Source: Clostridiales bacterium (GTDB lineage: Bacteria; Bacillota; Clostridia; Lachnospirales; Lachnospiraceae). From it: a DNA stretch of 64,000 nucleotides. Location of the stretch: positions 1-64,000 of the forward strand of contig JAAYTK010000082.1 in NCBI GenBank assembly GCA_012523775.1. The letters run 5' to 3'. This document shows positions 667 through 41,895 of the stretch, piece by piece. The position numbers were made by a program, and so were the translations under genes. Under the pieces are notes generated by a model. That model was not told where the DNA came from, did not search any database, and was given only the letters and a program-made list of their open reading frames with translations. Numbering within the stretch: position 1 is the stretch's first letter; each line of letters opens with the position of its first letter.

Positions 667-1335
667 TTATTCTTTCACCAAGATACCATCTCGCATTTGA
701 TAAGTAATGTCCATCCTATCGAGTATGCCCATATCGTGGGTGACAACCACAACACAATAGTTGCGTTCATGTGCTAGGTGGGCGAGCAAAGTGATAATAT
801 TACGGGAGTTCGTACTATCCAGATTTCCTGTAGGCTCATCCGCCAAGATAATATTCGTATTCATCGCCAACGCCCGTGCGATGGCAATGCGTTGCTGCTC
901 ACCTCCCGAGAGCATGGAAGGAAAGCGGTTGAATACCTTGTCTGTCAAGCCCACACTTATGATATGCTCTTTAGCACTCTTTATTGCATCCCGAGGGCTC
1001 ACTCCTTGTAGCTCCATCGGATACATCACATTCTCGAGTGCCGTCAAACGCGGGAAGAGCCTAAAGCTCTGGTAGATCATCGCTACATTGTTGCGACGAT
1101 ATTTATCTAAATCGAAAGTACGGGTGGAGATGCCATGAAAAAGTACATCGCCTTCATTTGGTAAGTCCAGTCCCGCCATAAGCGAAAGCATGGTGGACTT
1201 ACCACTACCGCTTTTGCCGATAATGGCATATATAAGTCCTTGCTCAAAGGAGCAGCTAACGTCGTTCAACACCTCCACGGTGTGATATTTGCTACTGTAC
1301 GAGTAACGTACAGACTGAAGTGAAAGGATACTCAT
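667..1335 (-). CDS. ABC transporter ATP-binding protein (LolD/MacB type)
   Basis: Walker A GKSGSGKST, signature LSGGEQQRIAIARAL, Walker B ILADEPTGNLD; start taken at MSILSLQ rather than the longer ORF. Confidence 0.92.
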   Translation of the reverse strand: MSILSLQSVRYSYSSKYHTVEVLNDVSCSFEQGLIYAIIGKSGSGKSTMLSLMAGLDLPNEGDVLFHGISTRTFDLDKYRRNNVAMIYQSFRLFPRLTALENVMYPMELQGVSPRDAIKSAKEHIISVGLTDKVFNRFPSMLSGGEQQRIAIARALAMNTNIILADEPTGNLDSTNSRNIITLLAHLAHERNYCVVVVTHDMGILDRMDITYQMRDGILVKE

Positions 1336-1345
1336 AACGGCCTCC

Positions 1346-4300
1346 TTATTCTTTCTCTGATAATATCGAGAGCGCACTCTTGGCGTTTTGCTTCAAAGCA
1401 GAGAGTGCTCCACTGATTGCATAACATATGAAAAATGTATAGACTCCCGGTGTAGTAAGCTGCGTGATACCCTCGCGTACATACCATATTGCTACGGCGG
1501 GTAGTGCGCCAAAGATCAAAAGCAAAATCTGCTCGCCGAATATCGTGGCAAATATACGGCTCTTCGGAGTTCCCATACCACGCATGAGGGCGATATCCTC
1601 ACGGCGATTGTTGACGGCAAGGAAGCCCATGATAAGTCCCAATATACATACAAGTACGAGGAGTACAGGATAAAGTATCTCCAGATATTTGCTACGCTGT
1701 GTAATAGAACTGAGGGTTTCATTGAACTGCCCGTCTTCGACCACAACACATATACGAATATTGTTAGCTGTTCTGGGACCAGAAAAGCCCATTTGTTCAA
1801 GACCGTCCTTCACCTCGCCCAATTTGCGGGGATCTCGGATTTTAAAAGTCAATGCCGAAACATATTTATTATCCAGCATCACATCGATTATCTGCTGCTG
1901 TGAGAACGTGATGCCACTTCCCCCCTTGGAGGATTCTGCTGCCCTCCCAGTCGCGTAAGTAAAATACCGACCGGTAGTGGGCTCTGAATTATCATTACTA
2001 AGCTCAATGAGGGATGAATGCGCGGGGTCAAGAGCACCGAGTGGTAGCGGACAGTAAATGTTATTTTGGTTCGCCACACGCATAAAGCTCCCTACCACCA
2101 ACATATCCATACTCATAAAGGCTGAGTTGTGGAAAAAATAATCTTCTACATAGACTCGTATGGTGTCTCCTGGTTTGATGCCATGTTCATCCATAAAATG
2201 TGTCGATACGATGCACGGTAACTTTTCCCATTCACGGCTGGAAAAACGGGTCTCATCCCATTCAGCCATAAATTCTCCGTGAAATTCGCCGAAATAAAAC
2301 TCGGGTGCATTCTTTACGGAGTCAGTAAATACTATGTTTGGCCCGGATATAAGGGCATTTTGTAAATTCTCCAGTTCAAAGGAGCTCATAGGCATAGGCA
2401 CAGGTTCTACATGCCCGGCTGTGCCATCCGCATACACAGGTATACCGAGATAAGCGTAATTTAAGGTATAGGTGTATGCAGGGTCGCTTATATGCTCAAA
2501 ACTCATAAGAGTTTTGGCGAACGTATTTTGGATGACAAGCCTGTCTGAAAACTTGCCGTCCATCTGAGCGCAATATCCCAGAATTTCTGTATTTTCATAA
2601 AGCTCCTTACGCGCCGTATCATATGAGGTGAGGGTTGCTTGCAGAACGGATACGAACAGCAATGCCGTCGCGCATAGTACAGGAGTCAAAAGTGAACGTA
2701 CTCCGCCACGTCGTATAGAGAGTATAGCATGACGCAACGAACCCGATAGTGCAACAGAGGATTTTCTAGGGGAACGGCGTACCCGCATTCGTGTTCTTAA
2801 TGAAATCAGCTTCCCGCTTATGGTTCTTTCAGCAAAATAAAGGCAAAGTGCAATAGAAATCAGAAACACACCCAAGCCGACTGCAGTGGCCAAAGGGTAT
2901 GACAGAGTCACAACGGGCGTAAATTCCTTGATAATGCCTTTAAAGGCATCGCTGTAACGTGTATCAACGGCTTGAAGCTCAGATACAAATTCATAGGAGA
3001 ATCCAATCAATCTCTCTGCATATCCCGTTCCTATAAAAATTCCTATCATAATGGCTATGAGTGCGATTAGGCTTGTACCAACCATCAGATAAGTACGCAC
3101 TTCGCTCTTTCTCGTACCAATACAGCGCATAATTTCAACAGTGTCCCGTTGTTTGTCCGCAAACAAGTAGGAGAAAAAAGCGAGCACCGCAAGCGTCACC
3201 GCAAGAGCTATGGCTGAAAGTGCTATGGCTGCTTTTTGAATAACCTTCAGTGCGTCCGCCGTGGCTTGATAGCCCTGATCGTAAACACTAATGAATATAC
3301 GCTCGGGCAGCAATGGCTCTATTTGAGATAAGAATGTATCCACGGTTCCGTTTTTTATAGTAGCCTGTCCTAAATTATAAAAATAGCGTACAGGCCCCGT
3401 CGAGTAAGATGTGGAGGGTATGTATACGTTGCGATGATAATCTGAATGGTGGTTAACAATACCTATTATGGTCAATGTCTCCGTACGAGACATCTTATCG
3501 CCCCATGTATATGTGGTGGCGTTTTCATCATCCGGCAGACGGATGTTCAACGCATCACCCACCTTCAAATCAAGGTCGTTGGCAAGGGTTTGGGAGATTA
3601 CGCATACCTTTGCTCCGTTATCACTCTCTTGACTTGTGAACAGACGACCAGAAACAAGCTGCAAATAGTTTTGGTTGAACTCCACAAGATCGCCAGGTTC
3701 CCGGACACGACAGATTGTTAGCCCATTATTCATAGCTGTATAGTACTGTGCTATGATATTATAAATGTTATTTTCTTCAGCATGTAAAGCTTCGACTGAT
3801 TCTATTTGGTAAAACGGCTTGATTGTAGAGCAGTCTACTCCTGCTTGCTGCGCAATCCAGCTATAAAAGGGCATCAGCTTCACAGACAGTCCATTTCCGC
3901 TAATCCTGTAATTATCTGCGTGGATTACATAGGTGGCGTTCGGATCAGGTGTAAACCCGAAATCTCCCTTCTCATTTTCTATGAACACGGCTTGCCCAGC
4001 CTCATAGGAACTGAAAGAGTATAGGCTTTCCACTAATTTACCGTAATAAGGGCTGTCCTCAGCATACTGCCTAATCCCGGTTACGATAAGCACACAGGGT
4101 GAACTATATTCGGCACTCCGCTCTTTGGAAACAAAACCGGATGCCGTACCCATACTCACGTCCGAAGGTTGCCAAAGGAGAACATTTTCGTTTGCCGCAA
4201 TTGCATCAAAATCGATTCCCGCAACATCTGCAAGCATGACATCGCTTTTGCTTCCTTTGTTCGAACCGTAATCTTCAAGATATTCCATATTGACTATTGT

Positions 4301-37945: not shown

Positions 37946-38194
37946 ATGCGTCTGAACGAGGTGATTATTTTGTCTGTGAGTTATAAAAAGCTCTGGAAAC
38001 TTCTGATTGACCGCGATATGAAGAAAAAGGATCTTTGTGATATTGCAGGTATAAGCCATGCATCAGTAGCCAAGCTTGGTAAGAATGAAAATGTGACAAC
38101 CGATGTCTTACTTAAGATTTGCTCGGCTTTACACTGTGACATTGGCGATATCATGGAAATTGTGGAGGATTCATATTCTGATATTGATAAATGA
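37946..38194 (+). CDS. XRE/Cro-CI family HTH regulator
   Basis: LIDRDMKKKDLCDIAGISHASVAKLGKNENVTTDVLLKICSALHCDIGDIMEI. Confidence 0.88.
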   Translation: MRLNEVIILSVSYKKLWKLLIDRDMKKKDLCDIAGISHASVAKLGKNENVTTDVLLKICSALHCDIGDIMEIVEDSYSDIDK

Positions 38195-38232
38195 TAATAA
38201 CTTTTTCTCTTAAGAGATAAGTTGGAATAGGA

Positions 38233-38910
38233 GTGATTAGTATAGAAACATTATTTTTTACTATTGTAAATCGAGGTAAAGCAAATGCCGTATTGCGCAA
38301 GGCCAAAGAATGCGGCGCAACCGGAGGAACTATATTATTAGGTGAGGGTACTGTACAGTCTAAGCTGTTGGATATTATGGGTATGACGGAGACGCGTAAA
38401 GAAATTCTTATAATACCCGCATCGGGCGAGCTAGATGCTACTCTCCATGAAATACTTAGTGATACGTTTAAATTTTCTAAAAGAAACAAAGGAATAGCTT
38501 TTTCTGTGCCATTTAGACGATGGACGCTCGATGCATCCGAACAAGAGCACAATATATCTTTAGATGATGACAGGTTTTCTCACTGTTGTTTATTTACTAT
38601 TGTAGATAAGGGACGAAGCAAGGACTGTATTACTTCTGCAAGGGCAGCAGGAGCCCGTGGCGGAACCGTAATACGCGGACATGGTGCAGGAGTACCTGCT
38701 GATTCGTATTTTCCATTGGCAATAGAGCCCCAGAAGGATACTGTTTTAGTTATCACAAGGAAGGACAAAGCTGCTGCCATTAGAGAAAGAATCTTCTCTG
38801 ATTTAGAGCTTGATAAGCCCGGAAACGGTATTATATTTACTCTTCCTGTAAGCAACACCAGTGGTCTGGTCGAAAACAGAATCCAAGAACGTAAAGGGGG
38901 GACACCATGA
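38233..38910 (+). CDS. Tandem PII-like (P-II nitrogen regulator family) protein, GTG start
   Basis: Two PII-like units: FTIVNRGKANAVLRKAKECGATGGTILLGEGT and FTIVDKGRSKDCITSARAAGARGGTVIRGHGAG. Confidence 0.8.
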   Translation: MISIETLFFTIVNRGKANAVLRKAKECGATGGTILLGEGTVQSKLLDIMGMTETRKEILIIPASGELDATLHEILSDTFKFSKRNKGIAFSVPFRRWTLDASEQEHNISLDDDRFSHCCLFTIVDKGRSKDCITSARAAGARGGTVIRGHGAGVPADSYFPLAIEPQKDTVLVITRKDKAAAIRERIFSDLELDKPGNGIIFTLPVSNTSGLVENRIQERKGGTP

Positions 38911-40763
38911 GTTTATTATTTGATAAGACTAAAGATGTTGCCAAAACTTTACTCCCGGTTGTGGCATTAGTACTTTTTATTTCATTTGTTATAGTTGATG
39001 TTGAAACAGATGTTATTATCCGCTTTATCGTAGGCAGTGTCTTGCTACTAATCGGTTTAACCATATTTTTATGGGGTGTTGATTTAGCGATGAATCCCAT
39101 TGGCGAGCATATGTCAATGGAAGTGGCCACTTCGAAATCTCCTATTAAAATAGCCATACTTAGCTTTTTTCTAGGCTTTCTGATTACCGTTGCAGAGCCT
39201 GATTTGCTTATTCTTGGTGACCAGGTTGAAGGCGCATCGGGAGGTACTTTAAAATCATTTATAATTGTATATATGGTTTCAATCGGAGTGGGTGTAATGG
39301 TTTCTTTGGGAATCTTCAGACTCCTTAGAAACAAACGCCTCAATATGTTTATGGCAATCACATATGGCATTATACTGGTTCTGGCTATACTTGTGTCACA
39401 GGAGTTTCTGGCAATTGCCTTCGATGCCTCAGGTGCTACTACCGGTGCTCTTACGACACCGTTTGTCCTTGCATTATCTCTCGGGCTTTCCAATGTTAAG
39501 GGTGGTAAGAATACCGAGGAAAACTCCTTTGGACTCGTTGGTATCATGAGTGCCGGACCGATACTGGCAGTTATGCTGTTGTCAATAATAACGAGACAGA
39601 AACACATACAGGGCGATGCCGGAGAATATATCTTCCAAAAAGGCGTACTTGGACCGATTCTGGATGCTATTCCTCAGCTGTTTATTGAATCCCTTTTAGC
39701 TCTGTTACCAATAACAATTTTGTTCTTTATATTTAATTTCACTAAATTTAAGATAAAGAAGGGTGAAATGATTACCATTATTAAAGGTCTAATCTTTACC
39801 TTAATAGGTCTTGTTATATTCCTAACCGCTGTAAATTCAGGATTTATGGATATGGGTAGAATTTTAGGAATGGAGATTGCAAAAATGAATAAAGGCCTGC
39901 TTATTGGGCTGGGCTTTGCATTAGGTCTTATCGTTGTCTTGGTAGAGCCTGCAGTTCATGTTCTTGGTGAGCAAATAGAAGAGGTTACAGGCGGTCACAT
40001 ACCTATCAACTTAATTCGAACCACATTATCCATAGGTGTTGGAAGTGCCATAGCTCTTTCTATGGTAAGAATAGTTGTTCCCGAGGTAAAGCTTTGGTAT
40101 TTCCTATTACCCGGATTCTTAATTGCAATTATTCTTTCATTTAAATCGAACCCTGTTTTCGTTGGTATCGCTTATGACGCCGGCGGCGTTGCATCGGGTC
40201 CTATGACTGCCACATTTGTACTCGCATTCGCCCAGGGTGCTGCCACAAGGATAGATACCGCCAATGTTCTTGTGGACGGCTTCGGTGTAATAGCCATGGT
40301 CGCAATGGCTCCGGTGCTATCAATTATGATTCTGGGAACCATATTCCAGCGAAAGAAGGTTGTAGAGCATCCTCATGATATCGAGGATAAGGAAACCGTA
40401 GCCGTGGCTCCGACAAATATGGACGATTTATATCACGACTGCCTCCTGGTAATTGTTAATAGGGGCTATGCTGAAAATGTTGTAGATGTGGCAAGACAGG
40501 CTGGTGCTACAGGAGCTACCATATTCCACGGAAGAGGTACCGGTGATCATCATACCGTCAAACTGCCGATTATTAATATAGAATTACAGCCTGAAAAGGA
40601 AATTGTATGCCTCATCACGGGAACAGATATAAGTGCAGATGTTGCGAGTGGTTTAGTGAAGGATTCGCAGCTCGAACAAGAAGGCGAAATAGCAGTATAT
40701 ATATCGCCGACTGTTGCAATGATAAAGAACCTTAAATTTGACAATAACTTCTTAGCAGATTAA
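38907..40763 (+). CDS. DUF1538 family integral membrane protein, internally duplicated, with C-terminal PII-like domain
   Basis: Two homologous TM halves (AEPDLLILGDQVEGASGGTLK / VEPAVHVLGEQIEEVTGGHIP; DASGATTGALTTPFVLAL / DAGGVASGPMTATFVLAF) then VIVNRGYAENVVDVARQAGATGATIFHGRGTG; 4-bp overlap with upstream PII gene. Confidence 0.85.
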   Translation: MSLLFDKTKDVAKTLLPVVALVLFISFVIVDVETDVIIRFIVGSVLLLIGLTIFLWGVDLAMNPIGEHMSMEVATSKSPIKIAILSFFLGFLITVAEPDLLILGDQVEGASGGTLKSFIIVYMVSIGVGVMVSLGIFRLLRNKRLNMFMAITYGIILVLAILVSQEFLAIAFDASGATTGALTTPFVLALSLGLSNVKGGKNTEENSFGLVGIMSAGPILAVMLLSIITRQKHIQGDAGEYIFQKGVLGPILDAIPQLFIESLLALLPITILFFIFNFTKFKIKKGEMITIIKGLIFTLIGLVIFLTAVNSGFMDMGRILGMEIAKMNKGLLIGLGFALGLIVVLVEPAVHVLGEQIEEVTGGHIPINLIRTTLSIGVGSAIALSMVRIVVPEVKLWYFLLPGFLIAIILSFKSNPVFVGIAYDAGGVASGPMTATFVLAFAQGAATRIDTANVLVDGFGVIAMVAMAPVLSIMILGTIFQRKKVVEHPHDIEDKETVAVAPTNMDDLYHDCLLVIVNRGYAENVVDVARQAGATGATIFHGRGTGDHHTVKLPIINIELQPEKEIVCLITGTDISADVASGLVKDSQLEQEGEIAVYISPTVAMIKNLKFDNNFLAD

Positions 40764-41346: not shown

Positions 41347-41356
41347 ATACTAACAT

Positions 41357-41399
41357 CGTCAGTTCGAGACCTTCCTGACGTAAAACAAAACTAAAGGAG
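41357..41399 (+). ncRNA. preQ1-I riboswitch upstream of queT
   Basis: Stem CGTCAG/CTGACG, loop TTCGAGACCTTC, A-rich tail TAAAACAAAACTAAAGG; loop CCTT can pair with tail AAGG (pseudoknot) and masks the RBS. Confidence 0.82.
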
Positions 41400-41406
41400 A
41401 TTTTAT

Positions 41407-41895
41407 ATGAATAAAAGGACTTTATACATTACTCAGGCGGCTGTAATTGCCGCCATCTATGTTGTACTGGTATTTGTATTCCAGTATTTCAGCTTTGGAC
41501 CGATACAATTTCGGATTGCCGAAGCACTTACTGTGCTTCCCTATTTTACACCTGCCGCCATACCCGGTGTTACGATAGGCTGTTTGCTCAGCAATCTTCT
41601 TTTTAAAGCAGATATTCTGGATGTTATATTTGGAACAGCAGCAACTCTTATTGCTGCCTACCTGTCTTATCAGTTAAAGGATAACAAATTCCTGGTTCCG
41701 GTCCCGCCCATCCTAATTAACGCCATAATCATTCCCTGGGTATTGAAGTATGCCTATTTTGAAGCAGACCCAATTCCCTTTATGATGTTTACGGTTGCAG
41801 CAGGTCAGCTGGTTTCTGCCGGTTTATTAGGTATGATATTATTGTTTTCTCTAGATAAGGTAAAACATATTATTTTTAAATATACAGGGGCATAA
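41407..41895 (+). CDS. queT: QueT family ECF-type queuosine-precursor transporter
   Basis: FSFGPIQFRIAEALTVLPYFTPAAIPGVTIGCLLSNLL. Confidence 0.9.
   Translation: MNKRTLYITQAAVIAAIYVVLVFVFQYFSFGPIQFRIAEALTVLPYFTPAAIPGVTIGCLLSNLLFKADILDVIFGTAATLIAAYLSYQLKDNKFLVPVPPILINAIIIPWVLKYAYFEADPIPFMMFTVAAGQLVSAGLLGMILLFSLDKVKHIIFKYTGA

Follow-up and report, generated by a model that had tools for sequence, protein, structure and literature searches.

A clostridial operon joining a fused DUF1538 (Ump) membrane protein to tandem and fused PII units: a probable PII-controlled cation/proton antiporter

Introduction

PII proteins are sensors of nitrogen and carbon status for which few transporter partners are known. 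Members of the superfamily form trimers that hold their ligands in the clefts between subunits, and in canonical GlnB and GlnK the C-terminal RxR(TGE) contacts ATP.

It is established that PII proteins control secondary transporters: PII inhibits AmtB, and SbtB inhibits SbtA in its AMP state (PMC10710835). This use of PII seems so far to be limited to trimeric transporters (PMC10710835). Affinity chromatography with c-di-AMP in Synechocystis enriched SbtB and also NhaS2 and NhaS5, and the interaction of SbtB with salt-acclimation transporters was noted there as open (PMC10117731).

The one characterised pair of DUF1538 proteins is UmpAB of Halomonas zhaodongensis, a heterodimeric Na+(Li+, K+)/H+ antiporter that is active at pH 6.5-9.5, is encoded by the separate genes umpA and umpB, and functioned in E. 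coli from a clone carrying umpA and umpB without a PII gene (PMC5484666). DUF1538 is also among the gene families predictive of growth pH (PMC13255231). The pairing of DUF1538 and PII genes is already visible in automatic annotation; in the open-licence literature searched, we found no paper describing the pair or tying PII to DUF1538 or to cation/proton antiporters.

Here we analyse an operon in a 64,000-nucleotide stretch of a Clostridiales bacterium (assembly GCA_012523775.1, contig JAAYTK010000082.1, positions 1 to 64,000), referred to as the window, in which a DUF1538 membrane protein and PII units are encoded together.

Results

A tandem PII gene coupled to a DUF1538-DUF1538-PII gene

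At 37946-40763, the ORF listing of the window gives three ORFs on the same strand, with the following features.

37946-38194, + strand: HTH gene (XRE/HTH_26 regulator, VanU-like), 82 aa, 38 bases upstream of the tandem PII gene
38233-38910, + strand: tandem PII-like protein, 225 aa, GTG start (PF00543, AF2, Foldseek)
About residues 5-95 of the tandem protein: PII unit N1
About residues 115-210 of the tandem protein: PII unit N2
38907-40763, + strand: DUF1538-DUF1538-PII fusion, 618 aa, with UmpA/UmpB-like membrane halves and a third PII unit, C3
38907-39596, + strand: DUF1538 half A, residues 1-230, with broken helices AEPD (96-99) and DASGATTG (173-180)
39711-40346, + strand: DUF1538 half B, residues 269-480, with E347 and D424 invariant
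40407-40742, + strand: C-terminal PII unit C3, about residues 501-612, with the B-loop PGxGIxF motif lost

As the preliminary description had it, the start of the third gene overlaps the previous stop. The overlap is of 4 bases between the ATG of the 618-aa protein gene, which the purine-rich aaaggggggacacc precedes, and the stop of the tandem PII gene, and the two genes are translationally coupled through it. Upstream of the operon, Rfam matched no ion or second-messenger riboswitch. A PreQ1 riboswitch match at 41353-41400 (+) of the window reaches 23 bits against a gathering threshold of 39; it lies directly 5′ of the QueT transporter gene (41407-41895) and, although below threshold, is probably a real preQ1 riboswitch.

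Three PII folds in two genes

Two PII-like units had been proposed for the second gene and one for the membrane protein, and sequence and structure comparisons bear out all three. N2 passes the gathering threshold of P-II (PF00543) in Pfam (31.4 bits vs 25), C3 matches P-II below it (17.2 bits vs 25), and N1 has no match of its own in a Pfam scan of the tandem protein. N1 is nevertheless homologous to both N2 and C3 by sequence comparison, C3 aligns with N2 at an E value of 2e-13 (two-sequence comparison), and PF00543 is matched by all 37 of the 37 homologues of the tandem protein.

An AF2 model of the tandem protein (pLDDT 81, pTM 0.79; plasmid-derived rows were left out of the structure-prediction alignments) shows two beta-alpha-beta-beta-alpha-beta units and matches GlnK/PII structures with a Foldseek probability of 1.00. 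For the 618-aa model, the first 43 Foldseek matches are all PII proteins (SbtB, CPII, GlnK and relatives) and fall on the C-terminal domain, the best structural matches of C3 being SbtB and CPII (probability 1.00). The PII fold, on which the preliminary description had staked its reading beforehand, is thus found, and the assignment of three PII folds in two genes is solid.

These units are not canonical GlnB/GlnK, which combine a full T-loop with a C-terminal RxR(TGE). Aligned with the genome's own GlnK, their T-loop is about 4-7 residues shorter, and the C-terminal RIRTGE (RxR) present in that GlnK is missing. With a T-loop some six residues below the canonical length and no RxR, they must act in a way that differs in detail from canonical PII, a point against the PII-controlled antiporter reading. 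The canonical GlnK is encoded beside an ammonium transporter, separate from the DUF1538 operon.

The B-loop, compared with the G(D/E)GKIF-type motif, is kept in N2 (KPGNGIIF), partial in N1 (RNKGIAF) and lost in C3; among homologues, PGxGIxF is retained in the second units and in single PIIs. Because its B-loop is kept, N2 appears to be the best candidate for a ligand-binding unit, and ligands of the adenine-nucleotide type are plausible for it.

The membrane part belongs to the DUF1538 family

PF07556 matches the 618-aa protein twice at full length (E 4.6e-125, 415 bits in total), passing the Pfam gathering threshold. The acidic-Pro motifs lie at residues 97-113 and 347-363, and the DAxGxxxGxxTxxFVLA motif regions at residues 173-190 and 424-441. 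Across 40 aligned sequences E97, P98, E347, P348 and D424 never vary, and D99 and D173 hardly do. The AF2 model places two broken helices in each half, AEPD/VEPA (96-99, 346-349) and DASGATTG/DAGGVASG (173-180, 424-431); E97, D99 and D173 of half A are candidate ion/proton residues. The two homologous membrane halves seen by the preliminary description, each with both motifs, therefore hold up.

Against the NCBIfam equivalogs of UmpA and UmpB (NF041627/NF041628), the protein scores 168.8 and 145.4 bits, with cut-offs of 490 and 500. These scores, far below the cut-offs, count against the antiporter reading in that the substrate could differ, so it is only by homology to UmpAB that we infer that the membrane part would swap Na+/K+ for H+. 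From UmpAB, a likely substrate class can be proposed where the substrate had earlier been called unknown.

A search of PDB sequences with the DUF1538 profile gave no match, and in the Foldseek search of the model against solved structures only the PII domain, not the membrane part, was matched. A ClC match in that Foldseek search, at a probability of 0.18, is meaningless.

DUF1538 and this PII subfamily are inherited together

We surveyed 299 genomes drawn from the phylum and covering many families, using a PII subfamily profile (A4) built from the tandem PII and counting matches of at least 60 bits; other matches stayed at or below about 40 bits. DUF1538 is found in 101 genomes and the PII subfamily in 101, with both in 100 and neither in 197 (Fisher p about 4e-78, a value that ignores shared ancestry). 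The one genome with DUF1538 only (G056) carries it as a pseudogene with six internal stops, and the one with PII only (G049) has a partial 68-bit match beside an aldehyde ferredoxin oxidoreductase.

In 99 of the 101 genomes, the two genes are neighbours on one strand (G266 being judged by coordinates), which is the gene linkage of PII-regulated transporters of the AmtB-GlnK and SbtA-SbtB type; in G218, the tandem PII is on a different contig from DUF1538. The pairing is far from chance, and near-obligate co-inheritance is well supported. Co-conservation of PII with DUF1538, for which the preliminary description had looked to a survey of genome context, is thus borne out.

Annotated DUF1538-PII pairs also occur on RefSeq plasmids of Paraclostridium, Peptoclostridium, Vescimonas, Methylocystis and Chelativorans, laid out as umpA-umpB-PII in Alphaproteobacteria and as a fused DUF1538 protein plus a PII protein in Clostridia.

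In a sample of closer relatives, PII accompanies DUF1538 at 41 of 45 examined loci. One of the others (G349) is a cut contig. The remaining three genomes (G372, G379 and G392; loci L182, L185 and L186) have DUF1538 pairs and no PII of this subfamily at the locus or elsewhere in the genome, which counts against reading this PII as the dedicated regulator of DUF1538. These loci are natural controls for transporters without PII. Decaying DUF1538 genes are seen at L204 (G056) and L178 (G319).

At L230, a gene of the DUF1538-linked PII subfamily (3703-4050) lies away from DUF1538, downstream of a gene for PntB, the NAD(P) transhydrogenase beta subunit (920-3433). At L226 (3778-4560), an orphan tandem PII gene shares its strand with a neighbouring MFS sugar-transporter-like gene.

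A second PII subfamily lies beside Na+/H+ exchangers

Weaker PII relatives located away from DUF1538 adjoin genes for PF00999 Na+/H+ exchangers. With a profile (A5) built from four exchanger-linked PIIs and searched in the same genomes, we found a distinct second PII subfamily beside PF00999 homologues in 30 of the 30 loci read, of which 4 are the seeds and 26 are independent. These are loci L236-L265, with the PII gene near 1500-1850 in most; exchanger linkage is also seen at L228 and L232-L235. At L228, a PII gene from a further branch comes next after a CPA antiporter with TrkA_C.

Since this second subfamily adjoins PF00999, and since c-di-AMP chromatography enriched NhaS2 and NhaS5 along with SbtB, ion/proton exchange is the most likely process under PII control here.

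The fused layout is confined to a genus-level clade

DUF1538 and PII units occur in ratios of 1:1, 2:1, 2:2 and 2:3. Outside the clade of the window, the ratios are mostly 1:1, 2:1 or 2:2; apart from this clade, only the unfused relative L152 (5550-6506) has three PII units, with a tandem PII and a separate third PII gene behind DUF1538-DUF1538. The 2+1 pseudo-trimer suggested earlier is thus not supported as a general rule.

The fused DUF1538 proteins form a single clade (support 1.0), whose sole member without C3 is truncated where its contig ends. The clade (L033-L047) is of genus level and consists mostly of MAGs labelled Clostridiales. In the PII-unit tree, N1 falls among first units, while N2 and C3 fall among second or single units; in the tree of a larger sample, C3 forms one clade (support 0.97), and its nearest relative is the separate third PII gene of L152 (support 0.75). 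From the PII and DUF1538 trees, we take the layout of the window, with the PII gene first and a third unit fused, to be a derived innovation of this clade.

The HTH gene, earlier counted as an operon member, is not a conserved part. It is found at 4 of the 15 loci of close relatives in the fused clade and is absent at other relatives' loci sharing the same sbcCD neighbour. We rejected it as a core part of the operon on the 4 of 15 count; it is probably accessory.

At L221 (346-1230), a DUF1538 C-terminus may be joined in frame to both PII units; the pieces of DUF1538 upstream of it are in other frames, close to the contig start.

Discussion

Because UmpAB is a tested antiporter, we read the operon as a PII-controlled cation/proton antiporter: it is fairly probable that it encodes a DUF1538 (Ump) monovalent-cation/proton antiporter with fused halves and a dedicated PII-type regulator. 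As PII goes with the pump in almost all of the genomes examined, it probably gives cells an inbuilt metabolic brake on this exchange of ions.

In the mechanism that we propose, Na+ or K+ would be exchanged for H+ through the acidic residues of the broken helices (E97/E347, D173/D424), and the PII units would dock on the cytoplasmic face of the DUF1538 pair. Binding of an adenine nucleotide or second messenger, most likely AMP/ADP/ATP or c-di-AMP, would set the state of PII, which would then slow or lock the transporter in a ligand-dependent manner, as SbtB does on SbtA and GlnK on AmtB. In the fused clade, one PII unit would be tethered to the transporter and two supplied as the soluble tandem protein; N1 and C3, with their degenerate B-loops, may serve assembly or contact. 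The ligand, the sign of regulation and the physical contact between PII and DUF1538 are points that we infer. The description of UmpAB as a heterodimer counts against this reading: either DUF1538 would be trimeric at a higher level or the rule that PII acts on trimeric transporters would be broken.

Several other readings have to be weighed against the PII-controlled antiporter. PII might gate a DUF1538 protein carrying bicarbonate, ammonium or another small ion, if the antiport of UmpAB did not extend to this distant subfamily. The unmet equivalog cut-offs and the lack of a solved structural relative of the membrane part (PDB profile search, Foldseek) leave room for this, as do the known PII partners Amt and SbtA, which transport ammonium and bicarbonate. 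We consider it unlikely, since the family keeps the motifs with their acidic residues unchanged, Na+/H+ exchangers are the neighbours of another PII subfamily, and DUF1538 is predictive of growth pH. That the PII units act elsewhere, in nitrogen control, and share the operon by accident is highly improbable: the automatic label 'P-II family nitrogen regulator' speaks for it, but phyletic coupling and adjacency are near-perfect, PII is fused to DUF1538 in the clade of the window, and the genome has a separate canonical PII beside its ammonium transporter.

The role of the units within the complex can also be read differently. As permanent structural subunits for assembly or stability, they would not respond to a ligand, in keeping with the fusion of C3 to the transporter and the lost or changed B-loop of C3 and N1. 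However, UmpAB worked in E. coli from its PII-free clone, which fits PII as a regulator and not an essential subunit, three genomes have DUF1538 without this PII, and the B-loop is kept in the second unit and in single PIIs; a purely structural role thus seems improbable. Within the PII-controlled antiporter reading, soluble N1-N2 and membrane-bound C3 could close one three-unit ring per transporter. Three diverged units per locus are present throughout the fused clade, and a third unit appears favoured in the genus, because C3 has a single origin and its nearest relative is the unfused third PII of L152. Yet the third unit type is absent at most loci, and the data agree just as well with a C3 homotrimer or with three tandem proteins forming a ring; we rate the mixed ring as rather unlikely.

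More broadly, and only tentatively, PII sensors could be general dedicated regulators of bacterial monovalent-cation/proton antiporters (DUF1538/Ump and PF00999), with the clade of the window having gone furthest, to a fused sensor unit and a mixed three-unit PII sensor; we put this somewhat short of probable. If true, a near-obligate PII partner of cation/proton antiporters, together with the PF00999-linked PII, would extend direct PII control to pH, Na+ and K+ homeostasis and give a candidate function to many genes labelled as P-II family nitrogen regulators. No solved structure related to the membrane part could be detected, so that a structure of DUF1538 would be informative.

The pairing of PII with a transporter is known in itself; new here are the antiporter-family partner and the combination of tandem and fused PII units, for which genomic support is good and the mechanism is a proposal. 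UmpAB resembles the system of the window in having two homologous DUF1538 units (PF07556) per transporter, but is encoded by two separate genes and described with PII unmentioned, whereas in the window the halves are fused, carry PII at the C-terminus and score below the equivalog cut-offs. SbtA-SbtB likewise has a PII-like protein on a secondary transporter, and SbtB and CPII are the best structural matches of C3; its membrane protein is unrelated, and SbtB is a single-unit trimer in contrast to the tandem and fused units here. GlnK-AmtB shares the PII fold and a PII gene beside the membrane protein on which it acts, but the units here have a short T-loop and no C-terminal RxR, their partner is a putative antiporter, and the genome has its own GlnK beside Amt. 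Finally, the RefSeq pair 'DUF1538 domain-containing protein / P-II family nitrogen regulator' is the same gene pair, from which the window differs in its reversed order, with PII first, and in the extra PII unit fused to the transporter.
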